A stretch of 64,000 nucleotides of DNA from Candidatus Sulfidibacterium hydrothermale (GTDB lineage: Bacteria; Bacteroidota; Bacteroidia; Bacteroidales; F082), in NCBI RefSeq assembly GCF_020149915.1, contig NZ_CP083760.1, forward strand, positions 992,001 to 1,056,000. The letters are read 5' to 3'. Shown piece by piece: positions 9,959-28,046 of the stretch. Positions within the stretch are counted from its first letter, which is position 1. Each line of letters begins with the position of its first letter. The notes beneath the pieces are model-generated. The model was not told where the DNA came from. It saw only the letters and a program-made list of their open reading frames with translations, and did no database searches. The position numbers and the translations under genes are program-made.

Positions 9959-11188
9959 CTATCTTTTTATCGTAAAGCAATGTATCCCTTTCGAAAAGGT
10001 GTATTTGATTTCTAACTGATGGGTTTCGCAGATACGTTTCACGATGGCTAATCCAAGTCCCAGTCCCTGAGAATCTTTTTTTACAAACCGTTGAAAAATA
10101 GTTTCTTGTGGTAGCGGGTTTTCATTTCCTGTATTACAGATTTTCAATGTCTTGTCAGTAAGGATCAGGTGAATAACGCCTTCTTTTTTATTGTGTTTTA
10201 TGGCGTTGGAAAGCAGGTTGTTGATGAGTGTTTCTGCCAGTGTTTCATGCATTCTTACCCGGAAACATCCCTTTTCTTCTGTTTTCACCTGGAGCTTTGC
10301 GCTTTCAATGAGTGGCAGGAGCACGGTATATCGGCTTTGGATGGTTTGATTCAGACAAAGGCTTTTGGGAGTAAATTGTTTGTTCTCTATTTTGGTGAGC
10401 AGAAGCAGATGCCGGTTGAGGGCAGAGAGCCGTTTGGCGGCCTCGTAAGTGTGGTAAATGCGGGTTAATTCTTTTTCCGGAAGGTCTTGCTGTAAAACTT
10501 CCTCCAGATTCATCAAAATAACCGACAGTGGTGTCTGAATCTCGTGTGATGCATTTTCGGTAAACTCTTTCAGACTTTGGTAGTCGTTTTGTACTTTTTG
10601 TGTAAGCTCAGAAACCACGTGGTTTAGTTCGTCAAATTCGGCAATGCCGGTTTTTTGCAAAATGACTTTTTGATTTTCTTTCAGGGAAAAAGCTTTGAGT
10701 GCCGACAGGTTCTGGTAAAAAGGTTGCCATATTGCAGATGCTGCCTTTTTGTTGATGAAATACAGGGTAATAATGAGCAATAAAAAAATAGCGGTAATGC
10801 TGAGAAAGATGCTGGAAACAATATCTCTTTTTTCGACAGCCAGTGCCCGGATGACGATATGATAATTTTCGCCGTTAATTCTCCGGAAAGTATTGAGTTC
10901 TTTAAATACTTCGTTTTCGTTTTCTACCGGATCAAAAATGGTGGTGTCTTTTACATATTCCGGGCCGGTTTTGGACGTTCGCGTTACTTCGATCAACGGA
11001 TAAAGCCGGGGTACGGCTTTGTGATTTTTTAATTCATGAACAATGCGGGTTTCACTGGCATGCAGCCCCTCCAGGATTTCGTGTGAAGCAATACGGTTGA
11101 TCAGGAAATAAAAAATAAGCAATCCGACCAATAACACAATGGCAGAGCTGATAAGATAACTCCGGTTTATTTTTTTTAATAGTTTCAA
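9959..11188 (-). CDS. Sensor histidine kinase (two-component system)
   Basis: A 409-residue membrane kinase. Helices lie at about residues 11-31 and 124-146 and enclose a ~90-residue periplasmic sensor. A HAMP-like linker leads to the dimerisation/phosphoacceptor helix with His215 (NASHEIQTPLS). The ATP-binding domain has the N box (NLLSNAIKHN) and a G box (GLGLGLAIVKRI). The start overlaps the stop of the response regulator by four bases, so the pair is co-transcribed and coupled. The architecture resembles CusS/QseC-type kinases that control envelope or efflux functions. The RND pump genes downstream on the same strand are a plausible target, but this is an inference from proximity. Confidence 0.92.
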   Translation of the reverse strand: MKLLKKINRSYLISSAIVLLVGLLIFYFLINRIASHEILEGLHASETRIVHELKNHKAVPRLYPLIEVTRTSKTGPEYVKDTTIFDPVENENEVFKELNTFRRINGENYHIVIRALAVEKRDIVSSIFLSITAIFLLLIITLYFINKKAASAIWQPFYQNLSALKAFSLKENQKVILQKTGIAEFDELNHVVSELTQKVQNDYQSLKEFTENASHEIQTPLSVILMNLEEVLQQDLPEKELTRIYHTYEAAKRLSALNRHLLLLTKIENKQFTPKSLCLNQTIQSRYTVLLPLIESAKLQVKTEEKGCFRVRMHETLAETLINNLLSNAIKHNKKEGVIHLILTDKTLKICNTGNENPLPQETIFQRFVKKDSQGLGLGLAIVKRICETHQLEIKYTFSKGIHCFTIKR

Positions 11189-11930: not shown

Positions 11931-12998
11931 CTAACGGATAATTTTACCGGATGCGGTTCTTTCAAATTTCGTTTTGAAAACAATGTTGTCAGGTATTTCA
12001 ATCTTTTTCAGAATTTCCTGCATCTGCTTTTTCAGTTGAAGAATTGAATTTTCCGGCCAGGGTTCCGATTCGATAAACAACACCGGACGTTCGCCAAGCA
12101 GACGGTCCGGTTGTTTCCCGATATAAAACGGTTTTTGAATCCGGGTTGACAGCTTTTGTTCAATTTGTTCCGGAAACAGTTTTACTCCGCCGCTGTTGAT
12201 GACGTTGTCGGTTCTGCCGAGCATCCGGAAGCTGCCGTCCGGCAGAAATTCGACCACATCGTGGGTTTCCAAATCGAAAACGCCAATATGCGGAGCGGTA
12301 ATTTGCAGGCAGCCGTTGGGAGTTTGGCTGAGCGAAACACCCGGCAGCGGCTGAAAGCCGGTGGTTTTATCCGGCCCGTTTACTTTGCGCAATGCCACGT
12401 GCGTCAGTGTTTCCGTCATGCCGTAACTGTGCCACACTTTTGTTTGCAATGTTTGTAATTTTTCTTCCAGCAGAAGAGAAAGTCCTGAGCCACCCAGTAA
12501 CAGTTTTTCAATGCGGTTTAAGAAAGCAGTTCCCTCTTCTGTTTCCAGCAGCTTTTCCGCCTGGGCGGGAGTCATGGCGGCAAAATGCAATTCCGGAGTC
12601 CATTCGCTGTAAGGATACAGTTTCGGCTCAATGCAGTACAAATCCAGTTGCCCGGTAAAAGCCCGCACGACCATCATTTTGGCAGCAATGTACCGGACAG
12701 GAAGGCAAAGCAGTATTTTATCGCCGGGTTTTAAATCAAAAAAATCCAGCGTCATTCGGGCACTGGCTTTCATGGCTTTTTTGTCCACCCTGATTTTCTT
12801 CGGTGTTCCGGTGCTGCCCGAAGTTTGCACCGTTATGGTTTCTGTATCCGACAGCCAGTCGATAATAAAATACATTAGTTCCTTTTTCCAGGGCGCCGGT
12901 GACCAGTTCTCTTTCAAGTGCGTGTAAGCGTACTGTAAATGCCAGGCTTCATCAAAAGCCCGGGTGTTCAGGCGGAGTATTTTTTTTTCTCTGGTCAA
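11931..12998 (-). CDS. menE: O-succinylbenzoate-CoA ligase (menaquinone synthesis)
   Basis: A 355-residue acyl-adenylating enzyme, short as is usual for MenE in Bacteroidota. The P-loop-like A3 motif is TSGSTGTPKK (about residues 59-68). A5 is WHSYGMTETLTH, A7/A8 is GRTDNVINSGGVKLFPEQIE, and the catalytic C-terminal lysine is in FERTASGKIIR at the very end. It activates o-succinylbenzoate to its CoA thioester, the substrate of MenB. menC lies upstream on the same strand at 14062-15117, which supports the assignment. The two men genes are separated by an AT-rich ORF6N gene, so transcription may no longer run straight through. The rest of the men pathway is outside the window. Confidence 0.88.
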   Translation of the reverse strand: MTREKKILRLNTRAFDEAWHLQYAYTHLKENWSPAPWKKELMYFIIDWLSDTETITVQTSGSTGTPKKIRVDKKAMKASARMTLDFFDLKPGDKILLCLPVRYIAAKMMVVRAFTGQLDLYCIEPKLYPYSEWTPELHFAAMTPAQAEKLLETEEGTAFLNRIEKLLLGGSGLSLLLEEKLQTLQTKVWHSYGMTETLTHVALRKVNGPDKTTGFQPLPGVSLSQTPNGCLQITAPHIGVFDLETHDVVEFLPDGSFRMLGRTDNVINSGGVKLFPEQIEQKLSTRIQKPFYIGKQPDRLLGERPVLFIESEPWPENSILQLKKQMQEILKKIEIPDNIVFKTKFERTASGKIIR

Positions 12999-14061: not shown

Positions 14062-15117
14062 TTATGGTTCAAGGAAATCTAAGTCCCATCGGTTTTCCGG
14101 GGCAAATTTTAACTGGTCGCCTTCGATAAACAGTGGTGAAGAGATGTTATTGGTAAAAAGTTGTCCGGTGCCGAGTCCCTGTGGCAGCGGGTTTTCCAGC
14201 AGGAAAGTCCACTGCGCAATGGCATTCAGCCCAATATTGCCTTCCAGTGCCGAGGTTACCCACCAGCCTGTGCCGCTTTGTTCCGCCATTGCTATCCACT
14301 GCCGGCTTTTTGCAAAACCACCCAACAGCGAAGGTTTTAAAACCAGATACTGTGGCCGAACGGTTTGCATCATCTTTTGCATCTCTTCTGTGGTTTTCAG
14401 CCCGATGAGTTCTTCGTCCAGCGCCACGGGAACGGGTGATGTTTCGCACAACCGCGCCATCATTTCCCATTGTCCCTGCCGGATGGGTTGCTCAATGGAA
14501 TGAAGGGCAAAATCCGACAGCCTTTTTAATTTTTCCAATGCTTCATCCGGTGCAAAAGCGCCGTTGGCGTCCACACGCAGCTCCAGCTCTTTTTCATCAT
14601 GTTCGAGACGAATCATTTTCAACAGCTCCAGCTCTTTTTCAAAGTCAATGGCCCCAATTTTCAGCTTAACACACCGGAAACCGGCATCCAGCTTTTTGCG
14701 GATTTGTTGTTTCATAAAACCGGCATCGCCCATCCAAATCAGTCCGTTGATGGTTATTCCTTTGCGGCCCTGTGTGAATTCAGAAGGGAATAAGATGCGC
14801 CGGCCTCCTTTTTGACGGTCGAGCAAAGCCGTTTCCAGTCCGAAACGGATGGAAGGGAAATCTTCTAATCCCGCCTGCAGCCAGTATTCCGGTGGTTCCG
14901 GACCGTGGCAAACAGCATCCAGTGTTTCTTCGTAACGGTTCCACGGGTCGGGACTCAGTCCTTTTATTGTGCTGCACTCGCCAATGCCGGTAATCTCCGG
15001 ATTTTCTGTGTCGCGAACCAACAGATAATAAGAGGTTTTTTGTGTAAGTACTCCCCGTGAAGTGCCGGCCGGACGCTTAAATTGTAAAACATGCTTTTTA
15101 TAGGATAGCTGAAGCAT
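14062..15117 (-). CDS. menC: O-succinylbenzoate synthase (menaquinone synthesis)
   Basis: A 351-residue enolase-superfamily enzyme. The catalytic KxK is in RCVKLKIGA. The metal-binding acidic residues are in LRVDANGAF, SIEQPI and ALDEELIG, and the second-side lysine is in YLVLKPSLLGG. It dehydrates SHCHC to o-succinylbenzoate in menaquinone synthesis, which feeds MenE. The N-terminal capping domain (LQLSYKKHVLQFKRPAGTSRG) and length fit MenC better than a dipeptide epimerase, and the nearby menE on the same strand supports this. About 120 bases separate its stop from the start of the ORF6N gene, and 167 bases without any recognisable gene separate it from the hydrogenase-like operon upstream. 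Confidence 0.88.
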   Translation of the reverse strand: MLQLSYKKHVLQFKRPAGTSRGVLTQKTSYYLLVRDTENPEITGIGECSTIKGLSPDPWNRYEETLDAVCHGPEPPEYWLQAGLEDFPSIRFGLETALLDRQKGGRRILFPSEFTQGRKGITINGLIWMGDAGFMKQQIRKKLDAGFRCVKLKIGAIDFEKELELLKMIRLEHDEKELELRVDANGAFAPDEALEKLKRLSDFALHSIEQPIRQGQWEMMARLCETSPVPVALDEELIGLKTTEEMQKMMQTVRPQYLVLKPSLLGGFAKSRQWIAMAEQSGTGWWVTSALEGNIGLNAIAQWTFLLENPLPQGLGTGQLFTNNISSPLFIEGDQLKFAPENRWDLDFLEP

Positions 15118-15284: not shown

Positions 15285-17183
15285 TTATTTTACCATCATT
15301 CCGATGATAAAAACCGTTATGAAAATAAGCAGGATGTAAGCCACGTAAGCACTGATTTTGCCGTTCATCAAAACCGACGCTGTTTTTTCGCCCACTTTTC
15401 TGACCAGTCGGGTAATGGCTTCTGTGGGACGTATTAAAAGATCTTCCACCTGAATACTGCTGCGTGTTTTTGATTTTGTTTCGTGGGTACGGTAAAATCC
15501 GCGCAGGATATGTTCCAAAATTTGTGAATAGGCGGGAGCACTGAAAAATTCGCTTTCCTGCAGCTCAATTCCGCCATTCCAGGAGGGAACTTTCCGTGTT
15601 TTTTTCTTGTTTTTCATAAACAACCACAACGGAATTATCATCAAAACCAGCATGATAATACCAATAAAAGTCGGTGAAATGACCCCGAAAGCAGGCATCC
15701 CCGAAGCCAGCACCAAAGGAGCCGGAACAGCGAGAAGCCCGATTAATAGGTGCGGAAAACCAATAAACAGGATAAGCAAAGGCAACCCGATTCCTCCCAG
15801 CACAATAAGTGATTCCAGTGCTACTTCGGCAATATGCATCAACCGATTGGGAATGGGCCGGCTTTTGCGACCATGATCATATCCCAGGGCGGTATAACCG
15901 ATGAGTTTTATCATGGCAAAGCCAATCAATCCGATGGCCAGTGCAATGAGTATGCCGGCCAGTGCCGAAAAAAATGCCACGGCAATACCGGGAAAACGAT
16001 ACGACTGAAACAACGTTTCCAGGATCATCCATTCGCCGGCATAACCAATCAATGGCGGAAAGGCACTAAAAGAAAGTGCCGAAATAACAATGCCCAAAGC
16101 CGGAATTCGGCCCACACCGCTCCAAACGCCCCTGGCCTCATCAATGGTGTGTACATTGTAAGCTTCTTTGGCATGCCCTACCGACATAAACATCAGTGTT
16201 TTGGATAAAGTATGCGATATCACAAGAATAAGCGAAGCTGCCAGGGCAAAAGTGGCCAGATAATGTAAGTTTGGCAAACCGGAACCCTCCGCCAGTGCAT
16301 AAAAACCGATGGCTGTCAATATCATTCCGTTATTTTCAACCGTTGAATAAGCGGGAAGTAACCGTATTTTGTCGGCCGCCGCTGCTTGCAAACCGCCCCA
16401 AAAGGCAGAAAAAGCTCCCAGCAGAATAATAATCATATCCCATAGCTGGTTGTGCGGCAGCAGAGGCATAATTCTCTCCAGCCCATACACACCCATGAGT
16501 GTTACCGGAGCACTGAGCAGGGCTGCCGTGTTATCCGGAATATCCCCGTAAATACCCCGCATCCAGCTGTGGAAAGGCACAATATCCATTTTTATGATAA
16601 AACCGAGTGAAAGCAGTATCAGCACAAAGAAACTTCCTTTATGCAAAGCATCAAACGACAGACTTCCCGTAAAAGCATATAATGCGGCAAACCCCATCAC
16701 CAGGCAAATGGTGGACAATTCGCCAAAAGCCAGAAAACGGTACGAACGTTCGAAATGTTTTCCGGTTCCCTGCATCATTAAAAAAGCAAAGATTGTCATG
16801 ATTTCCCAGCCAATCAGCAGGGTGATGCCATCGTGTGCCGTCAAAATCAATAACATGCCGGCCAGCGACAAATTAAACCCTGTCGAGAGCCTTTTTTTTG
16901 AGTAAAGTCTGGAATAATCAACAGAATATAAAGCCAGCGCCATCCACGATACAGCAGCGATGATGATAAAAATACCCGACAAATGATCGATATACAAAGA
17001 AAGTTCAACAGAGGGCAACAGGTGAAAATTCCACAATACCTGTGTGCGAACCAGCGCAAAACAACCGATTAAAAACGCACTTACAGCCCCGAGAAATCCC
17101 AGAATATAGCTTAGTTTGGTTTTCGGGGAAAAGATGGCTCCGAGAGCAAACAGAAATAATGTGATGACAAATAAAAATTTCAT
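15285..17183 (-). CDS. Antiporter-like proton channel subunit (HyfB/HycC/NuoL-like) of hydrogenase-like complex
   Basis: A 632-residue membrane protein of the Mrp/NuoL/HyfB family, the largest channel subunit of the complex and the last gene of the operon. The central proton-transmission domain is recognisable: the helix-5 glutamate in LLIGWEIMTIFAF, and the helix-7 lysine and loop in KMDIVPFHSWMRGIYG. It ends with the long amphipathic region and terminal helix typical of HyfB/HycC (AYVAYILLIFITVF). The segment after the HSW loop reads LLSAPVTLMGVYGL, where many relatives have a lysine before the YGL; this substitution may be natural in the branch. Its start overlaps the stop of the small-subunit gene by four bases. 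Without redox partners its energy source is unknown. Confidence 0.85.
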   Translation of the reverse strand: MKFLFVITLFLFALGAIFSPKTKLSYILGFLGAVSAFLIGCFALVRTQVLWNFHLLPSVELSLYIDHLSGIFIIIAAVSWMALALYSVDYSRLYSKKRLSTGFNLSLAGMLLILTAHDGITLLIGWEIMTIFAFLMMQGTGKHFERSYRFLAFGELSTICLVMGFAALYAFTGSLSFDALHKGSFFVLILLSLGFIIKMDIVPFHSWMRGIYGDIPDNTAALLSAPVTLMGVYGLERIMPLLPHNQLWDMIIILLGAFSAFWGGLQAAAADKIRLLPAYSTVENNGMILTAIGFYALAEGSGLPNLHYLATFALAASLILVISHTLSKTLMFMSVGHAKEAYNVHTIDEARGVWSGVGRIPALGIVISALSFSAFPPLIGYAGEWMILETLFQSYRFPGIAVAFFSALAGILIALAIGLIGFAMIKLIGYTALGYDHGRKSRPIPNRLMHIAEVALESLIVLGGIGLPLLILFIGFPHLLIGLLAVPAPLVLASGMPAFGVISPTFIGIIMLVLMIIPLWLFMKNKKKTRKVPSWNGGIELQESEFFSAPAYSQILEHILRGFYRTHETKSKTRSSIQVEDLLIRPTEAITRLVRKVGEKTASVLMNGKISAYVAYILLIFITVFIIGMMVK

Positions 17184-17656
17184 GACTGTTTTCTTTTTGT
17201 TTTGGCTATATCCAGGAATAATCCTAAAATTTGTGATGGGGAAGGCACTCCGGTTATGGCGGCTATGTGATTCGGCAATGCCGGATAGTCAACACCGCCC
17301 GGACGTTGAGGGTTGTCGTCTATGGTAATGGTGTAAAAAGGTTGCGGAAGTTGCGACAGTGTTTCTTTTAAAGGATTTATCATGGCTTTTACGGGATGTC
17401 CCAGTATTAAAAGCACATCCGCATGCCGGGGCGAATCGGTCCAGTAAATACCGAAACGATGCATGTTGTACTGCGGCGCTTCCAAAGCACTGATTTCAAA
17501 ATTCAAGGCATTGCTGCTGCCCACATCAATAATGTACACAAATAACGAACGTTTAAAAACAGTTGTTGTCGGAAGACGTAATTTTACGGAAGAGAGATAC
17601 TCCCTTTGTTCTGTCAGTTTCTTTTTGAGTCCGTATAAAGGCCACCACCGTATCAT
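17180..17656 (-). CDS. Cysteine-free small subunit homologue (NuoB/HycG/HyfI-like)
   Basis: A 158-residue protein clearly homologous to the 20-kDa subunit of group 4 hydrogenases and complex I: SLFVYIIDVGSSN matches the IDxGSCNGC strand, and DSPRHADVLLILGHPV matches the SPRHADILLVTGPV signature. Every ligand of the proximal [4Fe-4S] cluster is replaced: the two N-terminal cysteines are Ser48 and Leu51, the mid-protein cysteine aligns with Asn115, and the one in the usual GCPP is Val137 (GVPSPSQIL). The sequence contains no cysteine at all. It therefore cannot hold the N2-type cluster, and presumably keeps only a structural role linking the large subunit to the membrane arm. The gene lies 40 bases after the large-subunit gene. 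Confidence 0.85.
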   Translation of the reverse strand: MIRWWPLYGLKKKLTEQREYLSSVKLRLPTTTVFKRSLFVYIIDVGSSNALNFEISALEAPQYNMHRFGIYWTDSPRHADVLLILGHPVKAMINPLKETLSQLPQPFYTITIDDNPQRPGGVDYPALPNHIAAITGVPSPSQILGLFLDIAKTKRKQS

Positions 17657-17696: not shown

Positions 17697-18947
17697 TCAA
17701 CATGCTGCATCGGCAAAGTGCACGCCAAAAGAGTCAAATACAAAAGGAAAATCGGTGAAGATTAATCCTTCCAACACATGCGAAACCGCATGCATCCCCG
17801 GGTAAGACGGGGTAAAAATGTCAACTTTTTTCATTTCCCCCTTTTCCACTTCCACATAATAGCCCAAAGCTCCGCTGGGCGAATTGGCCACAGCATAACC
17901 TGTTCCTTCAGTATTTGTCTCCTGGTTCTTGTTTTCTTCAGTATCATACCACGAATCGCTGGCACGCAAATGGTCCACAAGATACAGACATGAGTTTACC
18001 AGTTCTTCGGCTCTGACTTCCATTCTGGCTAGTGCATCTCCCTGATTTTGAGTGATTACAGGAAGGCTTACCAGATGTTCTGTTGTTTTGTTTAAACAGT
18101 CTTTTATTCCGCAGGCCCGCAGAGAAGGTCCGGTTAAGCCCCAGGCTTCGGCCAAAGCGGGGGTGACAATTCCTGCCGAATGCAAACGGTCTAAATAATT
18201 GTAATTAGACAGACTGTGTTTGTATAATTTGGTAAAACGATCGGCCAGCTGTTGATAACCGTTGGCAATTTCCTGAATGCCGGATAGGTCAGGCGTATGA
18301 TTTAACCGGCCGATGTTGTTAATTCCCATCAGATAACGCGAACCGGTTAAGCGCTCATTCAGCCGAAGTGCTTCTTCGAAAAGAGCACTTACATGAGCAG
18401 CCAGCACTTTTTGTGCAGCCGCCGAAGCCAGTTTATAAATCAGATGTAAATGATTATAAATGCGTTCGGATTCGATAAAAAGGGTACGCCAGTTTTTGGT
18501 AAGAAGAGAAGGGGTTATGCCCAGCGACATTTCCACCGCCCGGCTAAAAGCAACGGAATGGGATAGGGCAAAATTGCTACACACATTCTCGGCCATGCGC
18601 AGGGCATTTTCGGGCAATTGCTGTTCCATGGCTTTTTCCATTCCTCTTTGTTTCCAGCTAATATCAATGGTTGCACGTAAAATCTTTTCGCCGTAAGTGT
18701 ATAAATGAAAACTGCCGGCTTCCCGAATACCTGAAGTAACCGGACCATAACGAAATTTGAATACCCCGGGTCCGTGTACAGGCTCATCATTAATTTTAAC
18801 CGGATGCTGCTTTAAAAGGGCATAGTTACGATAGGTTTCTTCCGGATTGTCGCCTTTTTCCACATTGACCAGCGCTGGCTGTCCGTTGTCCAGAATAAAA
18901 AGCTTTTCGCCTTCGTGCGTGGCTATAATCCCGATCAATAATTTCAT
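17697..18947 (-). CDS. Large-subunit homologue (NuoD/HycE/HyfG-like) lacking most Ni-Fe ligands
   Basis: A 416-residue protein related to group 4 [NiFe]-hydrogenase large subunits and NuoD. Homology begins near residue 68 (YGPVTSGIREAGSFHLY) and runs through WKQRGMEKAM to the C-terminus; the first ~65 residues may be a shrunken NuoC-like part. In the L1 motif, normally VCGIC, it has NVCSNFALSH: Cys123 remains but the second cysteine is Phe126. In the L2 motif, normally DPCxxCTxR at the C-terminus, it has DSFGVHFADAAC, so the two cysteines become His410 and Asp413. Three of four Ni-Fe ligands are gone, so a hydrogenase activity is very unlikely. Energy-converting-hydrogenase-related (Ehr) complexes with lost Ni-Fe ligands are a known precedent. 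Confidence 0.85.
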   Translation of the reverse strand: MKLLIGIIATHEGEKLFILDNGQPALVNVEKGDNPEETYRNYALLKQHPVKINDEPVHGPGVFKFRYGPVTSGIREAGSFHLYTYGEKILRATIDISWKQRGMEKAMEQQLPENALRMAENVCSNFALSHSVAFSRAVEMSLGITPSLLTKNWRTLFIESERIYNHLHLIYKLASAAAQKVLAAHVSALFEEALRLNERLTGSRYLMGINNIGRLNHTPDLSGIQEIANGYQQLADRFTKLYKHSLSNYNYLDRLHSAGIVTPALAEAWGLTGPSLRACGIKDCLNKTTEHLVSLPVITQNQGDALARMEVRAEELVNSCLYLVDHLRASDSWYDTEENKNQETNTEGTGYAVANSPSGALGYYVEVEKGEMKKVDIFTPSYPGMHAVSHVLEGLIFTDFPFVFDSFGVHFADAAC

Positions 18948-18949
18948 GG

Positions 18950-20338
18950 TTACAACAGATTTTTTAACAACAGTTCGAAATAAGGAATAAACAGTATCAC
19001 CAGGAAAGACAAAATCAGATTAACAATGGCAATCCATGATTCCAAATGTGGTTTTTCCCGCTTAATTTTTTCGTTTTCCGAAAAAATCATTTTGCCGGTT
19101 TTAAAATTGACAGCAATAAAAGCAATGGCCAAAAATAAAATGATCACCAGGGCCATCAGCCATCCGTATTGTGCAATGAGTGCCGAAAAAATAAACAGTT
19201 CGCCAACGAAGATGGCAAAAGGCGGAGCGCCGGTAACAGCCATGGATCCGATAAACAGGGAAGAAGCTGCACGGGGCAGTCGTTGCATCAGGCTGTTTAC
19301 ATCCCGCATTTCAGTGGTATGATAACGCGACAACACATCTCCGGTAAGGAAAAAGACACCCGATTTTGCCAGTCCGTGCGAAACAATGATAATGACGGCT
19401 CCGAGAAGCCCGTAGCCTCCTAATGAAAATCCAATCAGAATCATTCCCATATTTTCCATGCTGGAATAGGCAAACATCCGTTTGTAATTCGTCTGTACCG
19501 TCATCATCAGCGAGGCTGTTATAACCGTAAGTGTGCCGAGGATGAATGTAAACAAACGAACGGTGCCAACAGGATAAATTTGTATGAGCCTTGCCATGGC
19601 ATACAGGGCTACCGGCAGCAGTACACCCGAAAAAATAGCACTTACTGGAGCGGGTGCTTTTCCGTGTACGTCAGGCAGCCAGGTGTGCATGGGAAATATT
19701 CCGGCTTTGGTTCCAAATCCCACAATGCCCAGCAAAATACCAATCAGGAAAACCCGGTTGTCCGGATGCGTCAGCAGTAACTTGTGCAGGCTGAGTGTGC
19801 CGGCCGAACCGTAAATAAAAGTGATGGCAATAAGCGAAATAACCAGTCCGGTGGATACAATGATAACATATCGCCATGCAGATTCTACGGTTACCTGATT
19901 GTTTTGTGTGGCAATCAGCAAAGCGCTGCTCACGGTGGTGGCTTCTATGCCAACCCAAATAAGTCCCAGATTATCCATGATAACGGAAAAAAACATGGTG
20001 GCCACAAAAACATTCAACAAAAAATAATACAAACGATGCTGAAACAGAAGGTTCCCGAGATGCTTGATATACGGTAACGAATACAGGACGGTGCTGATAT
20101 ACACCATGGCAATCGTCAGTATTAACAGTTTGGATAGGCCGTCGATATAAAAATAACCGTTGATATAAGAAGGCTGAAACAGAAGATATATGGCCGAAGA
20201 CAAAGTCAGTACCGAAGCAATAACCGACAGGGTGCGGTCCATATAACGAAAGGGCAAAATACACAATAAAGCTCCGAAAAGGCTGAAAAATATCGGAAGT
20301 AAATAAATAATATGTTGATTCATAACCATAACCTGCAT
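18950..20338 (-). CDS. Antiporter-like membrane subunit (HyfF/NuoN-like)
   Basis: A 462-residue polytopic protein of the NuoL/M/N-Mrp family, nearest in character to HyfF. The conserved helix-5 glutamate sits in LGLIWVGIEATTVSSALLI. The helix-7/8 loop reads GTKAGIFPMHTWLPDVHGK and is followed by APAPVSAIFSGVLL, so the proton-channel lysine and histidine are kept. The start could be at 20338 or at the second or third ATG nearby (20323 would give MNQHIIYLLPIFFSLF); I cannot choose between them. The gene ends two bases before the large-subunit gene and follows the HyfE-like gene by seven bases. It would be one of two antiporter-type subunits in the membrane arm. Confidence 0.85.
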   Translation of the reverse strand: MQVMVMNQHIIYLLPIFFSLFGALLCILPFRYMDRTLSVIASVLTLSSAIYLLFQPSYINGYFYIDGLSKLLILTIAMVYISTVLYSLPYIKHLGNLLFQHRLYYFLLNVFVATMFFSVIMDNLGLIWVGIEATTVSSALLIATQNNQVTVESAWRYVIIVSTGLVISLIAITFIYGSAGTLSLHKLLLTHPDNRVFLIGILLGIVGFGTKAGIFPMHTWLPDVHGKAPAPVSAIFSGVLLPVALYAMARLIQIYPVGTVRLFTFILGTLTVITASLMMTVQTNYKRMFAYSSMENMGMILIGFSLGGYGLLGAVIIIVSHGLAKSGVFFLTGDVLSRYHTTEMRDVNSLMQRLPRAASSLFIGSMAVTGAPPFAIFVGELFIFSALIAQYGWLMALVIILFLAIAFIAVNFKTGKMIFSENEKIKREKPHLESWIAIVNLILSFLVILFIPYFELLLKNLL

Positions 20339-20345
20339 GTTTAAC

Positions 20346-21002
20346 TTATCCGCGTAATTCTGCTTCGGAAGAGATGCCTTCCTGAAGAATGGTACGCTCT
20401 CTTACCCGTATAATAAGACTGGAAACCACTACCAGTCCCAAAAGATCTAATATCACTCCGGCTTCCACAATAAAAGGTAATCCGCCAAAAACCCAGCCCG
20501 AAAGCATCACCACGGCATTTTCCATCACCAAAAAGCCAATCATTTGTATGTAAGCATGCTTATGTGTAATGATGAGCAGCGAAGCCTGTAAAAACAGAGC
20601 AAAAGGCACCGAGCCCGACCGGACTTTTAATATGGAATACAAACTGTTTTGATAAATAAAATATCCAATGGCAATCAATACAAGCGACAACAGAATAGAA
20701 CCGCCCACGCCCAGCATAGGTTTGTCTTCACGTACTCGCCATGGTTTTTCGTACAGCCGGTGTAATGCTTTGTTCATAACCACGGGAATTGTAATTCCCC
20801 GAACCGCTATGGTAAGTCCCGCCAGAATAAACAACATGTATTCTTCCTGTGGCCGGCTCAGGCCCAGCAATACCAAAAACAGGGCGATGATGAAAGACGA
20901 AGCCGCAAATAAAAAGATAATTCGCTGCACATTGATCTCCCATTGCATGATAAGCGTAAGTACGATGAGCAGAAATCCTAATATTTCAAATACCTGATTC
21001 AT
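20346..21002 (-). CDS. HyfE-like membrane subunit
   Basis: A 218-residue, highly hydrophobic protein of the hydrogenase-4 E (HyfE) family, which combines features of NuoK with extra helices. A NuoK-like region with an embedded glutamate is visible in QMIGFLVMENAVVMLSGWVF and is followed by PFIVEAGVILDLLG; the paired glutamates in these helices are the residues that connect proton channels in related complexes. It has about six membrane segments. The gene lies between the HyfC-like gene (6 bases upstream) and the HyfF-like gene (7 bases downstream). The tight spacing argues for a single transcript and stoichiometric assembly. It contains no redox motif, as expected for this subunit. Confidence 0.85.
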   Translation of the reverse strand: MNQVFEILGFLLIVLTLIMQWEINVQRIIFLFAASSFIIALFLVLLGLSRPQEEYMLFILAGLTIAVRGITIPVVMNKALHRLYEKPWRVREDKPMLGVGGSILLSLVLIAIGYFIYQNSLYSILKVRSGSVPFALFLQASLLIITHKHAYIQMIGFLVMENAVVMLSGWVFGGLPFIVEAGVILDLLGLVVVSSLIIRVRERTILQEGISSEAELRG

Positions 21003-21008
21003 AAACGA

Positions 21009-21953
21009 CTATTTTATAATGTAATAAGCCAGGCTTGCAAGAAAAGCCAATGCGAAAGCCACAGCGAGAAAATCAAAATTCTTATATAACCGGAATTTGG
21101 AAACCGTTGTGTTCAGCAGTGCAAAAACAACAATCATTCCCAGCAGTTTCAGTAAATGAATGCCCATATACACCACAATGGCCAAAAAACCACTATGGGC
21201 AGTAGGAACGCCAAAAGGAATGAAGTAAACATTCAAAAACACACTGAGCAAAATAAACGTTTTCATGTAAGAACCTAACTTATACATAGCCAGATCCATT
21301 CCGGTATATTCAAAAGGCATCGCCTGGTCAATCATGCCCAATTCACCATTGGTATGTGATTCAACGGGTAACTGACCCGTTTCAATAATCAAAATCATAA
21401 AAAATGCCGCCAGCACAAATCCGTGTACCAACGAGTAATACCATTGCGGCGAAGTTCTGAGTACATGGTTGATAACAAACGGATTGTTGGTGTTGGAGAT
21501 GACCCCGAGCATGATGAATATAAGCACCATGATGGGTTCGGTAAATACAGCTAGACTGGCCGAACGCGATGTTCCTAAGTGCGCATAATTGCTTCGGCTG
21601 TCGATAGCCGAAAACTTCTTGATAGCTGCAGCAGCGCCAAAGAACAGTCCGCCCCCGATAAAGTCGGCACTCGGAGCAAACGGTAAAGGAAAGGCTGTGA
21701 TAATGGGTAAAATCATTGCCAGAAAAGCATAAAACATGACAATGACATAAGGCCCTAACCGGAAAACCGGCGAAGAAATCTGCGGCACCAGACTTTCTTT
21801 ACGGAAGAGTTTAATCAGGTCGTAATAAGGCTGAAAAATTGAAGGACCTTGTTTGGATTCTATGCGTTCCTCGAGCGATAACTGAATCCCTGCAATCAGC
21901 GGAGCGGCAACAATTACGTAAACTATTTCCAGAAAACTATACAAATACACCAT
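21009..21953 (-). CDS. HyfC/NuoH-like membrane anchor subunit
   Basis: A 314-residue protein with about eight helices, homologous to HyfC/HycD/NuoH, the subunit that docks the peripheral arm onto the membrane arm. The first cytoplasmic loop keeps the family pattern (EERIESKQGPSIFQPYYDLIKL; shown in pieces: SKQGPSIFQ then YDLIKLF). A second loop is ETGQLPVESHTNGELGMIDQ, with the acidic residues that line the E-channel in complex I. It is the first gene of the operon; a candidate promoter lies about 110 bases upstream. The intact docking loops suggest that the peripheral subunits still bind even though they have lost their metal sites. Confidence 0.87.
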   Translation of the reverse strand: MVYLYSFLEIVYVIVAAPLIAGIQLSLEERIESKQGPSIFQPYYDLIKLFRKESLVPQISSPVFRLGPYVIVMFYAFLAMILPIITAFPLPFAPSADFIGGGLFFGAAAAIKKFSAIDSRSNYAHLGTSRSASLAVFTEPIMVLIFIMLGVISNTNNPFVINHVLRTSPQWYYSLVHGFVLAAFFMILIIETGQLPVESHTNGELGMIDQAMPFEYTGMDLAMYKLGSYMKTFILLSVFLNVYFIPFGVPTAHSGFLAIVVYMGIHLLKLLGMIVVFALLNTTVSKFRLYKNFDFLAVAFALAFLASLAYYIIK

Positions 21954-22059
21954 GGCACATCTACCTTCAATAAATTAATAATTCTCATTACTAAGTAGGT
22001 AGGAGCCATTGGTTGTAAAGTACAACGATAAAGCGAGTTCCTCCGCTATTTTAAGGCGG

Positions 22060-22765: not shown

Positions 22766-22902
22766 CCCGCCTGAACCCGGTTCAGGCGGGCGCGCTGTCC
22801 GCTTTATTCCCGGTGGCAAAAGCCGTGTTTCGCCACGCCGGCTCACGAGCTTCCTGTGGTCGCTGTCTGCCGGCTGTCTCTGCATCGGCTTTCGCCACCG
22901 GG
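22766..22902. repeat. GC-rich palindromic element in a gene-free stretch
   Basis: The stretch 22700-23102 holds no convincing gene. It contains a perfect 12-bp inverted repeat around one base (22766-22777 and 22779-22790). It also contains a second pair of 17-base arms with one mismatch (22809-22825 and 22886-22902) enclosing a 60-base loop. The segment is far richer in G and C than its surroundings and looks like a dispersed structured repeat. Short open frames across it (for example 22741-22998) have no protein character. Confidence 0.6.
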
Positions 22903-23102
22903 CGATGCCGCTTCCATCGCTGCCACGGACAAATGGGTTCTGAATATTTTACAGAACTTCTAATTCATAACATTTTTCGATTACACCGGAAAATATAGAA
23001 ACCTTCCTGCTTTAACCTGTTTTTGCTATGGTTTCCGGAGAAAAGCATCACTTTGGTATAGTTTTGGTATTTTGAAAGGTATAACCGGAAAAAATAGTCG
23101 TC

Positions 23103-23737: not shown

Positions 23738-24481
23738 ATGACAGAAAAAATATTAGAACCCATTACAACGGAAAGTCTGAAAGACGTTTTCGTATCCCGT
23801 TTTGAAGAGTTGATCCTTTCCGGAAAGATTTCCATCGGCGAAACACTTCCTTCCGAAAGAGAACTGGCCGCCCGCCTGAAAGTAAGTCGGCCCGTGGTGC
23901 ACGAAGGACTGATTGAACTTTCGCTGCGCGGACTGGTGAGCATCCGCCCGCGTTCGGGAACCGTGGTGAACGATTTCAGAAAAGAAGGAGCCATTCCTCT
24001 GTTGCTTTCGCTGCTGAACTATCATGGCACCCTGGATCCCAAAATCCAGCAGGATATTCTCGAAATGCGTCTGCTTTTTGAAAATGAAATGGTACGGCTG
24101 AGTGCCCAAAACCGGAATGATGACCATCTTCGCCAGTTAAACGAGATCATCCGGCAGGAAGAAAATGCCGATACAAGCCAATATGCCGAAGTCGCCCGGA
24201 TGGATTATAAGTTTCATCAAATCATTGCGGTAGCTTCCGGTAATTTTATCTATTCACTGCTATTGAATTCCTTCCGTGAAATTTATCTGCATCTTTCCTC
24301 CCTGTTTTTTTCCGATCCGGCTGTCTGTCCGATGGTTTTCGTCACGCATAAAAAAATAGTGGAAGCTGTCCGGCAGCAAAACGAAGATGAAGCCGTCCGG
24401 TTGATGACCCGGCTGCTGAACCACGGTGCCGAGCATCTCGAAATGGCCATCCGTAAAAATAATCTGAGAAACAAAAAGTAA
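23738..24481 (+). CDS. FadR-subfamily GntR transcriptional regulator
   Basis: A 247-residue regulator. The N-terminal winged helix (about residues 10-80) shows ISIGETLPSERELAARLKVS and the wing RPRSGTVV. The C-terminal FCD domain (about 95-235) carries the helix MDYKFHQIIAVASGN and later THKKIVEAVRQ and NHGAEHL, which supply the Asp and three His residues that bind a metal in many FCD proteins and sense an organic acid. It lies 10 bases before the glycyl radical enzyme gene and is most likely its local regulator. A palindrome TGGT-N3-ACCA just upstream of its own start suggests autorepression lifted by the substrate or product of the pathway. The ligand is not known. Confidence 0.9.
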   Translation: MTEKILEPITTESLKDVFVSRFEELILSGKISIGETLPSERELAARLKVSRPVVHEGLIELSLRGLVSIRPRSGTVVNDFRKEGAIPLLLSLLNYHGTLDPKIQQDILEMRLLFENEMVRLSAQNRNDDHLRQLNEIIRQEENADTSQYAEVARMDYKFHQIIAVASGNFIYSLLLNSFREIYLHLSSLFFSDPAVCPMVFVTHKKIVEAVRQQNEDEAVRLMTRLLNHGAEHLEMAIRKNNLRNKK

Positions 24482-24491
24482 ATATACTGCC

Positions 24492-26996
24492 ATGGAAACA
24501 ATCCTGCAGGTTCCCAAAATCAAAGAACCTAAAAAACTGAGTAAACGCATCCAATGGCTGCGCGACTATTATTTTTCGGGCGTGAACCGGAAATGGAACA
24601 ACGAATTTACAGCCTGGACCACCGGTACGCCGTGGGATGTCCAGTACGATGAGCTGACGTATTACATTGTCCCTGAAACCTATCCGTTTCTCGAAACTTT
24701 TAAGTCTTCCATGAAACAGGCGGCCAGGAAAGTGAAAACCCCGGACGATTTTTTCCGGTGGAGCCTTCCCGAACGCAAAGCCTGGTTTGTAAAAGAAACC
24801 ATCGTGAATTACGTGCCGCAGGAACTGTTGCCCGGCGATCTGATTGCCGGTGCCCGTTTTAACCTGATGACGTCCATGTGCTGGACTGAGCAGGAAGCCA
24901 AAGCCGTCAACAAGCGGATTTACGGCAAAAACGGTTCCCGTGCCCAAATGAAATGGTTTCACGACCACGGTTACGGCAATGCCGGCGCCACTTCGGGACA
25001 CATCATCCCCGGTTACGACAAAGCCCTGCGCATCGGATGGAAAGGGATTTATGCCGAACTCAACGACTTCTATAACAATCTGTCCGACATGGAAAAAGGC
25101 GGAGCCAAAGGTGCGCAGCTTCGTGCCATGATGACCGCCGCTACCATGCCGCGCGACCTTGCGGTAAAATACAGCGCTCTTTGTCGCCGTAAAGCGGAAA
25201 ACGAACAGGATGCCAGTCGTAAAAACGAGCTGTTGCAGATGGCTGCCAATCTGGAAAAAGTTCCCTGGGAACCGGCCGAAACTTTTTGGGAAGCGGTTCA
25301 GGCACTCTGGCTGACCCACATGCTCGTGATGAGCGACGAAAACTATCCCGGTCCCGGTGTTTCTTTTGGCCGCATCGACCAATACCTGTTGCCTTACTGG
25401 CAGAAATCACTGTCCGAGGGCATGGACAGGGAGCTTGGCAAAGAAATCCTGAAAACTTTTTGGATTCATGCCAACACCGCTTACGATGCACTCATCCGTG
25501 TGGGGGCCAATCAGGGTATCACCGCCGGTTACGGCCAGTTGATTACGTTGTCGGGATTGGGTGCCGACGGTAAAGATGCCACCAACGACCTGACCTATGC
25601 CATCCTCGAAGTAATTGATGAAATGTCGCCGATACTGGAACCCAAACCCAACGTCAGGCTGCACCGCCATTCGCCCGAAAAGTTGCTGGACAAGCTGATC
25701 GATATGATTTCGGGAAGCCAGGGTTCGCCATTTTTACTGAATTTCGATGAGCGTTCCATGGCCGGCCTCATGCGGGAAGCCAAAAAAGGGAATTACGAAA
25801 AACTGATTACACTGAAGAATGTTTACGATTACGCCCCCGTGGGTTGCCTGGAGAACACCATGACCGGCAACGACCGTTCGGGAACGGTGGACAATAACCT
25901 GAACCTGTTGAAAGCGGTGGAACTGGCACTCACCGGCGGAAAGGATATGAACCGGTTTGTGGATCCCATCACCGGGAAAAAAGAAAAAATCAGACAGGAT
26001 GGCCCTAAAACCGGCGATGCCACTCAATTTAAAACCTGGGAAGAATTTAAAAAAGCCTACATCCGGCAAACGGAATACATCGTCAAAAAGATTGTTGACT
26101 TGTACGAAACTTCCGAATCCATTCGTGCCGAATACATTCCTACCCCTTATTTGTCGTGTTTGGTGAAAGGCTGTGCCGAAAAAGGAGTGGATGTTACGCA
26201 GGGAGGGGCCGAAATCAGTTTTACGACCATCGAAGCCGTTACTTACGCCACCACCGTTGACTCGCTGCTGGCCATTAAACATCTGGTTTTTGATAAAAAA
26301 CTGGTGAGCATGGAAGAACTTATTAAAGCTTTAAAAGCCAACTGGAAAGGTTTTGAAGTGCTGCAGGCCAGAGCCAAATATAAAACCCCGAAATATGGCC
26401 GCGACGATGATGAAGCCGATGCCATGGGGCGGTTTGTGATGGAAACCTGGACGGATGAAGTGTGGAAATATAAAACCCGTTCCACAAACCGGCAGTTTCG
26501 GCCCGGCATGTTGAGCTGGAACTATTGGGTAGGCGACGGCTATGTGCTGGCGGCCAGTGCCGACGGACGCGAAAAAGGACAGTTTTTGTCCAATGCCATT
26601 TGTCCGGTGAACGGTACCGATGTCAACGGGCCGACTTCCAACACCAATTCGGTGGGAAAAGTCCTTGGCGGCCGGACGGAAAACGGGGATTACGAAGATT
26701 TTGTCAATCTTGTTTCCAATGGCACCAGTCACACCATTACGTTTAACCCGTCGTTTATCAAAGATGCCGAACACAAAGAGAAATTCAAGGCTTTCCTGAA
26801 AGGCTACGTCGAAAACGGCGGAACGGCTTTGCAAATCAACATCCTTGATCCGGACATGCTGCGCGATGCCCAGAAACATCCGCAAAACTACCGCCATTTG
26901 TTGGTACGCGTTACCGGATACAATGCTTATTTTACAGCCATCGGAAGAGAGTTGCAGGACGAAATTATTGCCCGTATCAGTCACGAAAAATTTTAG
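24492..26996 (+). CDS. Glycyl radical enzyme of the PFL/glycerol-dehydratase family, substrate unassigned
   Basis: An 834-residue glycyl radical enzyme. The radical site is Gly809 in RVTGYNAYF, with the usual tail ELQDEIIARISHE. The active-site loop is VGCLENTMTG: the thiyl cysteine is Cys452 and a glutamate two residues on (Glu454) is the expected base. This Cys-x-Glu pair is found in eliminases and decarboxylases (glycerol, propanediol and hydroxyproline dehydratases, choline lyase, arylacetate decarboxylases). The Cys-Cys pair of pyruvate formate-lyase is absent. The loop GCLEN is not one I can match to a characterised member with certainty, so the substrate stays open. It works only under anoxia and needs the activase encoded 6 bases downstream. 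Confidence 0.9.
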   Translation: METILQVPKIKEPKKLSKRIQWLRDYYFSGVNRKWNNEFTAWTTGTPWDVQYDELTYYIVPETYPFLETFKSSMKQAARKVKTPDDFFRWSLPERKAWFVKETIVNYVPQELLPGDLIAGARFNLMTSMCWTEQEAKAVNKRIYGKNGSRAQMKWFHDHGYGNAGATSGHIIPGYDKALRIGWKGIYAELNDFYNNLSDMEKGGAKGAQLRAMMTAATMPRDLAVKYSALCRRKAENEQDASRKNELLQMAANLEKVPWEPAETFWEAVQALWLTHMLVMSDENYPGPGVSFGRIDQYLLPYWQKSLSEGMDRELGKEILKTFWIHANTAYDALIRVGANQGITAGYGQLITLSGLGADGKDATNDLTYAILEVIDEMSPILEPKPNVRLHRHSPEKLLDKLIDMISGSQGSPFLLNFDERSMAGLMREAKKGNYEKLITLKNVYDYAPVGCLENTMTGNDRSGTVDNNLNLLKAVELALTGGKDMNRFVDPITGKKEKIRQDGPKTGDATQFKTWEEFKKAYIRQTEYIVKKIVDLYETSESIRAEYIPTPYLSCLVKGCAEKGVDVTQGGAEISFTTIEAVTYATTVDSLLAIKHLVFDKKLVSMEELIKALKANWKGFEVLQARAKYKTPKYGRDDDEADAMGRFVMETWTDEVWKYKTRSTNRQFRPGMLSWNYWVGDGYVLAASADGREKGQFLSNAICPVNGTDVNGPTSNTNSVGKVLGGRTENGDYEDFVNLVSNGTSHTITFNPSFIKDAEHKEKFKAFLKGYVENGGTALQINILDPDMLRDAQKHPQNYRHLLVRVTGYNAYFTAIGRELQDEIIARISHEKF

Positions 26997-27002
26997 TCCC
27001 GT

Positions 27003-28046
27003 ATGACGGAAACAAATGCCATCAATGCCCGTTTGCTGGAAATCCAGCGCATGTCCACCGAAGACGGTCCCGGTATTCGTACGACTGTTTTTCTGAAAGG
27101 ATGTTCGTTGCATTGCTCGTGGTGTCACAATCCGGAAAGTATTTCCCCCGCGTCGCAATTGTATTGGATACGAACCAACTGTATGGGATGTCAGCTTTGT
27201 GTGGAAGCCTGTCCGAACAAAGCTTTGTCATACACAGATAATCAAATTGTTATTGACCGGACACTTTGCGAAGCCTGTGGAATTTGTGTGGAAGAATGCC
27301 CCACCGGTGCACTGGAAATTTGGGGGGATGAGGTTACCGTGGACGAGCTGGCGGAAGAAGTGCTGAAAGACAAAATATATTTTGAAAAATCCGGCGGCGG
27401 GGTGACCGTTTCGGGCGGTGAACCGGCACTTCAGGCCGGTTTTGTGGCAGCTTTTCTGAAAAAGATGAAAGAAAACGGCATTCATACGGCTGTGGATACC
27501 TGTGGACAGGCATCGCCGGCAGCCTACGAAAAAATGCTGCCTTATACCGATTTGCTGCTTTTCGATATCAAAGAAATCGACAGCCGTAAACATCAGGAAT
27601 TTACCGGAAGCCATAACGAAAAAATACTCAACAACCTGCTTACCATTTCCGAGTGGATGAAAGTTCATGGTTTGCCGAAAGCACTCTGGATACGTACCCC
27701 GGTTATTCCTGATGCCACCGACACGGAAGAAAACATTGCCGGCATCGGCCGGTTTCTGGCCGAAAACGGATTACATCCCGATCGTTGGGAACTGTGTGCT
27801 TTTAACAACCTGTGCAACGACAAATACCAGCGGCTTGGAATATCCTGGAAATTTGAAAAATACGGCCTTCTCGAAGAAGAAAAGCTGAACCGGCTCACCA
27901 CCGTTGCAAAAAGTTCGGGTGTAAACAGCGAAGTTGTTTTGTGGACGGGCTCGGCAAAAACGAAAGAAAAAATCATAAAAAATACCGGCAACCGGTCGCA
28001 ACCGGTGGACTATTGCCGCATTACCGGCCTGCCGGATGAAGAATAA
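27003..28046 (+). CDS. Glycyl radical enzyme activase (radical SAM)
   Basis: A 347-residue radical SAM enzyme that makes the glycyl radical on the partner encoded just upstream. The SAM cluster motif is Cys34-x3-Cys38-x2-Cys41 (GCSLHCSWCHNPE). A dicluster ferredoxin insertion follows, with cysteines 60, 63, 66, 70 and 89, 92, 95, 99 (CMGCQLCVEACP and CEACGICVEECP). Such an insertion is typical of activases for eliminase- and decarboxylase-type glycyl radical enzymes and is missing from PflA. The conserved GGE-type glycine-rich stretch is VTVSGGEPALQ. The last ~30 residues are basic and look like an extra tail. It is co-transcribed with the enzyme gene. Confidence 0.93.
   Translation: MTETNAINARLLEIQRMSTEDGPGIRTTVFLKGCSLHCSWCHNPESISPASQLYWIRTNCMGCQLCVEACPNKALSYTDNQIVIDRTLCEACGICVEECPTGALEIWGDEVTVDELAEEVLKDKIYFEKSGGGVTVSGGEPALQAGFVAAFLKKMKENGIHTAVDTCGQASPAAYEKMLPYTDLLLFDIKEIDSRKHQEFTGSHNEKILNNLLTISEWMKVHGLPKALWIRTPVIPDATDTEENIAGIGRFLAENGLHPDRWELCAFNNLCNDKYQRLGISWKFEKYGLLEEEKLNRLTTVAKSSGVNSEVVLWTGSAKTKEKIIKNTGNRSQPVDYCRITGLPDEE

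Follow-up and report, generated by a model that had tools for sequence, protein, structure and literature searches.

An Ehr-type complex with a cysteine-free small subunit in Candidatus Sulfidibacterium hydrothermale, encoded behind a predicted divergent fluoride-riboswitch leader

We analyzed a stretch of 64,000 nucleotides from Candidatus Sulfidibacterium hydrothermale (contig NZ_CP083760.1, positions 992,001 to 1,056,000 of the forward strand; hereafter the window), which carries on its minus strand a six-gene cassette in the order C-E-F-L-S-B (start of C at 21953, end of B at 15285) encoding hydrogenase-like large (L) and small (S) subunits together with four complex I/Hyf-type membrane subunits. 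An earlier reading of the letters alone (the sequence-only reading) had singled out S as a protein devoid of cysteine and had overlooked what we regard as the best clue to function, a fluoride-type riboswitch leader at 22056-21993. This leader, present in front of the operon in 7 of 12 genomes of the genus and predicted to be a divergent fluoride-riboswitch aptamer, is the new element reported here. We propose, with a probability of roughly 0.6, that the cassette encodes a redox-dead complex of the Ehr type that would act as a fluoride-switched ion/proton translocator, most likely as an Mrp-like cation/proton antiporter.

Small subunit and its cluster ligands

The S gene (17180..17656, minus strand) reads from an ATG at 17656 to a stop codon that overlaps the start codon of B by four bases, and its 158 residues include 0 cysteines, as the sequence-only reading had stated. 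The assignment to the HycG/HyfI/NuoB type made in that reading was also confirmed, since phmmer matched the protein to E. coli HycG (7z0s_G, E-value 9.4e-12) and to MbhJ (6cfw_J, 3.2e-11), with mitochondrial PSST among the further relatives. NCBIfam NuoB models match it down to an E-value of 7.5e-11, yet under their own curated cut-offs, and Pfam gave no family at an E-value of 0.1. The predicted structure is weak (mean predicted local distance difference test score, pLDDT, 55.4; predicted template modelling score, pTM, 0.58), and a Foldseek search with this weak model returned MbhJ and HycG at the top (E-values 1.1e-4 and 1.6e-4; TM scores 0.46 and 0.40); the model of the large subunit (pLDDT 46.2) was not used further.

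The claim that all four ligands of the proximal [4Fe-4S] cluster are replaced held for the first two, Ser48 and Leu51, which are invariant across six species, whereas at ligands 3 and 4 part of the sequence is missing and the change is not a clean substitution. Position 3 (residue 115) is Asn, His or Phe among the six species, and because some 14 residues found ahead of the fourth ligand in relatives are missing here, different alignments place position 4 at Gly136 or at Val137. The proximal cluster of a group 4 [NiFe] hydrogenase is thus represented by 0 of 4 cysteines in all six species, compared with 4 of 4 in E. coli HyfI and HycG. By our estimate the mere absence of cysteine from a protein of 158 residues is not very rare; what matters is that all four ligand positions are lost within an otherwise recognisable family, and by its residues the subunit is predicted to be unable to hold the proximal cluster.

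The gene was found in 6 of 12 genomes of the same genus, with the six copies of S at 73-77% identity to the window copy, and it is cysteine-free in every one of the 6 carriers, so that a sequencing error is excluded. In a seventh genome (G003), a contig end carries the leader together with C, E and a portion of F. No comparable match was obtained elsewhere when genomes were sampled evenly from the order (247 genomes) and from the phylum (395 genomes); the next-best scores there were 62.8 bits (G047) and 73 bits (G156) against 324 bits for the window's own gene; relatives outside Bacteroidota were drawn solely from a plasmid collection. The ratio of nonsynonymous to synonymous substitution rates (dN/dS) is 0.089 for S between G004 and G011, the only unsaturated pair (most other pairs have dS > 1.3), and for the same pair it is 0.135 for L, 0.073 for B, 0.037 for F, 0.059 for E and 0.054 for C. 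The sequence-only reading had asked whether the cysteine-free form is a conserved clade under purifying selection, and the answer is affirmative within the genus: no relative there keeps the four cysteines, dN/dS is far from 1, and S is under purifying selection within an intact operon. Its conclusion that the subunit has been retained for a function other than electron transfer agrees with this selection, with the intact operon and with the predicted inability to hold the cluster.

Uniqueness of the cluster loss was ruled out by a comparison of 31 small subunits, in which all four ligand cysteines are kept in 17, one in 5 and none in 9. The five with a single ligand cysteine come from Bacteroidota genomes and read D/C/D/N (G025, G040, G053, G068) or D/C/D/D (G047), and the nine with none are the six of the genus, G057 (D/N/D/N), Mycobacterium branderi (N/D/D/A) and Allomeiothermus silvanus (T/D/E/S). 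Only the six lack cysteine over the whole protein, and besides them only G047 lacks both the set of four ligands and any N-terminal ferredoxin cysteines. As the losses fall at several places on the tree of HyfC and the large subunit, Ehr complexes appear to have lost the proximal cluster on more than one occasion, a reading of the tree made with no formal test. Small subunits of the D/C/D/N or D/N/D/N type were seen in G025, G040, G053, G057, G058, G068, G015 and others (loci L008, L009, L013, L023, L012, L045, L011); this type carries an N-terminal half-ferredoxin domain and was found in this taxonomic order and once elsewhere in the phylum. The small subunit of the Allomeiothermus silvanus Ehr complex (L119, 9074-9946) apparently lost its cluster independently, and no fluoride riboswitch was found at this locus.

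Large subunit and assignment to the Ehr type

The large subunit (HyfG/NuoD-like; 17697..18947, minus strand) matches PF00346 (E-value 2.5e-21) and PF00374 (1.4e-11). It has RVCSNFALSH at the place where hydrogenases have RxCxxC, and its C-terminus reads VHFADAAC with no CxxC, whereas two true group 4 hydrogenases that were aligned with it, from G326 and G048, retain RICGICSTSH and DPCYCC. The NiFe-binding CxxC motifs of group 4 [NiFe] hydrogenases (Hyf/Hyc) are therefore absent, so that the complex is not a hydrogenase and is, judging from its sequence, of the already known Ehr (energy-converting hydrogenase-related) type: hydrogenase-like L and S with complex I-like membrane subunits and no NiFe ligands. 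A hydrogenase in which the cluster alone was lost, as the sequence-only reading had pictured it, is ruled out by these missing motifs. The histidine of the GPxH motif is replaced by Thr71 in all six species; at this position Arg was found in five fluoride-linked large subunits described below and His in seven other plasmid-borne sequences. The equivalent loop of complex I lines the quinone site.

Ehr complexes have been described as lacking the CxxC motifs and as being of unknown function (PMC10284858, PMC4378227, PMC6349859), and are assumed to couple a cytoplasmic redox reaction to ion translocation (PMC6349859). The present cassette resembles them in combining group 4 hydrogenase-like L and S, free of the NiFe motifs, with a complex I-like membrane arm, and differs from them in its gene order C-E-F-L-S-B, the lack of a ferredoxin domain, the cysteine-free S, the change of the GPxH histidine to threonine and the fluoride-type riboswitch leader. 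Compared with E. coli hydrogenases 3 and 4 (HycG/HyfI, HycE/HyfG), with which it shares the folds of S and L, the membrane subunits and the channel Lys/Glu residues, it has no NiFe site, no proximal cluster, no HycF/HyfH ferredoxin and no HyfA/HycB. The residues listed above argue against a cytoplasmic redox reaction in the cysteine-free clade. Marreiros 2013 and Coppi 2005 are reportedly the key papers on Ehr complexes.

Leader RNA

The leader (21993..22056, minus strand) lies directly in front of C in 7 of 7 operons detected among the 12 genomes. In the window it matches the fluoride-riboswitch family RF01734 over the full model length (1-64) with 14.9 bits, ending 40 bases before the start codon of C; no match in the window reaches the gathering score of 34 bits. 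Among the orthologous leaders the match reaches 21.0 bits in G008 (E-value 0.0059) and 15.0 in G002, compared with 14.9 in G000, the genome of the window, and RF01734 is the sole Rfam family listed at an E-value of 2 for the six leaders. The architecture of the family is recognisable, with P1 (22047-22044 with 22035-22032), P2 (22026-22022 with 22016-22012) and a pseudoknot (22041-22036 with 22007-22002). These pairs were counted on six leaders at first and then on seven, where 93.3% of the 105 cells (15 pairs) are paired and 6 pairs are changed on both sides; the pseudoknot, for example, is AGAGUU/AACUCU in G005 and GGAGCC/GGCUCC in G008. The covariation score was reached by 0 of 500 shuffles, and control versions in which the pairs were slid along are 34-51% paired. 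In the B. cereus aptamer, tertiary contacts are made by A37-U45 (the linchpin), U38 and A5-U35 (PMC8004769), and the equivalents of A37, U38 and U45 are unchanged in 7 of 7 leaders.

A putative expression platform (21951..22009, minus strand) was recognized in the minimum-energy folds of six leaders, which have z scores of -2.3 to -5.2 relative to dinucleotide shuffles. An alternative 3' helix built on the 3' strand of the pseudoknot occurs in 6 of 6 folds; in the window it pairs AUGGC (22009-22005) with GCCAU (21956-21952), including the A and U of the start codon of C. The start codon lies within the helix in 4 of 6 leaders, and the helix stops just before it in G004 and G011. Aptamer and start-region pairing would thus be mutually exclusive in these folds, a putative ON-switch layout.

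A model built from six leaders only (R1) gave 7 matches in the 12 genomes of the genus, all in front of gene C with an E-value of 1e-11 or better, including the seventh leader (G003, 49.9 bits), which was not among its building sequences. In the window it gave two more weak matches (E-values 0.15 and 0.84) that we regard as chance. Over 19 loci (194,245 bases) it returned 4 matches at an E-value of 5, the best at 0.0091, all in a fluoride island of Alicyclobacillus; two of the four are fluoride riboswitches also called by Rfam.

Elsewhere in the genus, RF01734 was found above its gathering score at other loci in 6 of the 12 genomes. A canonical fluoride riboswitch (45.1 bits; L126 1501-1564, G000:C1:1149906) stands in the window's own genome before an alpha/beta hydrolase open reading frame (ORF) followed by a dynamin-like ORF, both named from the look of the sequence alone; the Burkholderia fluoride island L118 likewise contains an annotated gene of the dynamin family. 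In G009 the riboswitch precedes a Na_H_Exchanger gene, and in G008 the operon leader itself is the best RF01734 match of the genome, with 150 of 340 candidates scored.

Membrane subunits and flanking genes

Gene order and spacing of the cassette are identical in the six species, and all six genes are full-length in each. The first gene (21009..21953, minus strand; PF00146, E-value 3.9e-27) encodes a HyfC/NuoH-like subunit whose acidic residues D97, D118, E139, E191 and E204 are common to E. coli HyfC and HycD. It is followed by a HyfE-like subunit (20346..21002, minus strand) that is conserved in the six species and matches the NCBIfam hydrogenase 4 membrane subunit E model at 1.2e-6, under its cut-off. 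Two antiporter-type subunits complete the arm: a HyfF-like protein (18950..20338, minus strand; PF00361, E-value 3e-56), in which E132, K211, K286, K325 and E380 are kept in all six species and in E. coli HyfF, and, as the last gene, a HyfB-like protein (15285..17183, minus strand; NCBIfam hydrogenase 4 subunit B, E-value 2.6e-104, under its cut-off) keeping E127, K198, K328 and E384. Both belong to PF00361, with transmembrane Lys/Glu conserved up to E. coli Hyf, as expected of Mrp-type subunits. No ferredoxin-type subunit was found within the cassette.

The flanking genes vary among the six operons and are common only to the sister pair G004/G011, so that no adjacent electron donor is conserved. 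A flavin reductase-like protein (PF01613; 22097-22699, minus strand) lies directly upstream of the leader in the window; as it is absent beside the other operons, it was ruled out as a conserved electron-transfer neighbour. A sub-threshold match to the Flavo-1 RNA (25.4 bits, gathering score 42) was noted at 22784-22934 on the minus strand. Further upstream, at 23738-28046 on the plus strand, a GntR-type regulator ORF is followed by glycyl radical enzyme-like (834 aa) and activating enzyme-like (347 aa) ORFs, named from the look of the sequence alone. Downstream of HyfB, an enolase-superfamily protein with an MR_MLE_C domain (14062-15117) and an acyl-AMP ligase-like ORF (11931-12998), both on the minus strand, resemble MenC and MenE. 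In G008, two proteins with MutS domain V directly follow the operon, and mutS belongs to the classes of genes that have been described downstream of the crcB RNA motif (PMC2864571). The window's genome has a separate complex I-like 49-kDa subunit gene at 465 kb.

Fluoride-linked relatives

The closest relatives of the large subunit in the plasmid collection lead to fluoride islands, in which RF01734 was called 14 times (L115, L116, L118) and a further 5 times (L155, L156). All four plasmid-borne relatives with the same gene order (C-E-F-L-S-B) begin their operon with an RF01734 that scores above threshold: in M. branderi it precedes a NUDIX gene and then C, and in B. cenocepacia, B. multivorans and Caballeronia it lies about 235-240 bases before C. 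In Alicyclobacillus it precedes a lone large-subunit gene (L116, 7764-9260, on a plasmid), with no other subunits within about 8 kb; a further aptamer-like site, missed at the Rfam gathering score, lies at 10708-10763 of the same locus. The HyfF of the B. cenocepacia plasmid operon (L118, 5533-8059) is read in two frames and is unannotated. At its gathering score RF01734 was found in 0 of 15 loci with other gene orders (Azospirillum, Allomeiothermus, Ciceribacter, R. johnstonii, Rhizobium sp. WYJ-E13, Methylovirgula and Variovorax, and from Bacteroidota G025, G047, G057, G068, G073, G137, G156 and G381), which were picked from match lists and not randomly, and in three of which less than 350 bases upstream were scanned (G073 about 145, Ciceribacter about 241, Rhizobium sp. 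WYJ-E13 about 339); the upstream stretches of R. johnstonii, Methylovirgula, Variovorax and G025 were added to the scan afterwards.

The operon has its position in the tree as well as its gene order in common with these fluoride-riboswitch operons. In a concatenated tree of C and L (28 rows), the six species and the four same-order relatives form one split with support of 100/100 (Shimodaira-Hasegawa-like approximate likelihood ratio test, SH-aLRT/ultrafast bootstrap), and the six plus M. branderi have 85/89. HyfC alone, with B. cenocepacia and M. branderi, gives 100/98 for the grouping with the six, and the large subunit alone gives 96/99 including M. branderi and Alicyclobacillus. Shared loss of cofactors cannot account for the grouping, since HyfC has no cofactor ligands.

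The five fluoride-linked large subunits also lack the NiFe motifs (the L1 motif could be read in three, the C-terminal motif in five). Formate hydrogen lyase has been listed among genes associated with the crcB motif (Weinberg 2010, PMC2864571), and its control by a fluoride riboswitch has since been repeated as a shift in fermentation (PMC11139923). With the NiFe motifs absent, the name is a misnomer for the fluoride-linked complexes examined, for which a role other than formate hydrogen lyase is needed. In the open-licence PMC papers searched we found no statement that riboswitch-linked 'formate hydrogen lyases' lack the NiFe site. The cassette resembles these operons in gene order, tree group and the riboswitch at its head, and is set apart from them by its sub-threshold aptamer and the loss of all cysteines of S.

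Discussion

We favor a scheme in which the four membrane subunits C, E, F and B, whose ion-channel residues are kept, would move ions or protons, while the cap formed by L and S, having lost the NiFe ligands, the proximal [4Fe-4S] cluster and the ferredoxin domain, would be retained as a structural cap or gate. Fluoride enters as hydrogen fluoride (HF) and acidifies the cell. Its binding would stabilize the pseudoknot of the aptamer and leave the initiation region of the first gene free, and when the pseudoknot is not formed the same RNA strand would mask that region, so that the complex would be made as fluoride rises. Given ion-channel residues with no redox chemistry, the translocation would have to be powered by an existing gradient, and antiport would restore pH and ion balance. 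The complex probably moves ions in fluoride or acid stress and does not make hydrogen. Na+/H+ antiporters are the next most common genes of fluoride riboswitches after exporters (PMC11139923), and this, together with the lowering of internal pH by HF, is why we propose an Mrp-like antiporter. Mrp Na+/H+ antiporters likewise consist of antiporter-type subunits related to complex I and operate without redox cofactors. The cassette adds HyfC and the L/S cap, which to our knowledge Mrp does not have, and antiport is here a prediction from sequence.

Several observations weigh against this proposal. All leaders score under the RF01734 gathering threshold, three of six are not listed even at an E-value of 2, and the window leader is not among the genus-wide RF01734 matches listed (150 of 340 candidates scored). 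Four of the six double changes come from the single species G005, 5 of 7 leaders have one pair of the pseudoknot disrupted, kinship among sequences can by itself push a covariation score beyond shuffles, and the simple-motif matches of the leader each recur in 3-7% of shuffles. Of the 14 Rfam fluoride riboswitches in L115, L116 and L118, R1 fails to recover 12, and it recovers none of the canonical ones in L126-L131. On the protein side, the Burkholderia and Caballeronia relatives keep all four cysteines of S and the ferredoxin domain, so that a fluoride link does not require loss of the cluster; the tree of the large subunit without M. branderi and Alicyclobacillus gives just 88/89, and long branches were flagged by treekit. 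In place of the A5-U35 tertiary pair of the B. cereus aptamer, 7 of 7 leaders have G and C, and the CrcB exporter occurs in 9 of the 12 genus genomes, including 5 of 7 operon carriers.

These last two points bear on different alternatives. The G and C at A5-U35, like the low scores, would fit an RNA that is related to the fluoride aptamer and responds to a different ligand or condition, with a translocator that has nothing to do with fluoride. We consider this rather unlikely: the linchpin and U38 equivalents are intact, G and C are consistent with a kept tertiary pair, the same variant occurs in an R1 match within the Alicyclobacillus island, and relatives with the same gene order have full-scoring fluoride riboswitches. 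The distribution of CrcB does not support the operon as its replacement and makes it unlikely, if worth keeping in mind, that the complex itself exports fluoride (coupled as F-/H+ or as HF) as a new kind of exporter made of complex I parts. A fluoride-type leader, relatives inside fluoride islands and two carriers of seven with no CrcB match (G002 and G003) speak for such an exporter; both of these genomes are fragmented drafts, and the kept channel residues are those of cation/proton antiporter-like subunits. We know of no anion site in the complex I/Mrp superfamily, which also counts against it.

That the complex still transfers electrons, with a cluster or cofactor supplied by another subunit or held by non-cysteine ligands, is improbable. 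Other Ehr small subunits swap ligands for Asp or Asn, which could in principle bind metal, and Ehr complexes in general are assumed to be redox-active (PMC6349859). In the present clade ligand 3 varies and ligands 1 and 2 are Ser and Leu, the cassette brings no ferredoxin-type subunit, and no neighbour is conserved. A decaying relic of a hydrogenase operon would account for the lost cofactor ligands and for the absence of the operon from about half of the genus genomes, and is highly improbable in view of the low dN/dS of S, six full-length genes in six species and a leader with compensatory changes; a pseudogene is refuted as far as sequence can do so.

Beyond the fluoride-switched translocator that we favor, we tentatively entertain a wider possibility, namely that a complex I/hydrogenase peripheral arm stripped of all redox cofactors now serves a fluoride-induced ion antiporter as its non-redox cap or gate, giving a stress transporter derived from complex I that may even move fluoride or HF itself, with the riboswitch-linked 'formate hydrogen lyases' as its redox-bearing or half-stripped cousins. 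The link to fluoride may also explain why, since 2010, 'formate hydrogen lyase' genes have been described behind fluoride riboswitches. It has long been asked how, in complex I, the membrane arm is driven by the peripheral arm, and a complex in which the peripheral arm is present and the channel residues are intact, while the redox cofactors appear to be gone, would make it possible to study the role of that arm when no electrons pass through it.

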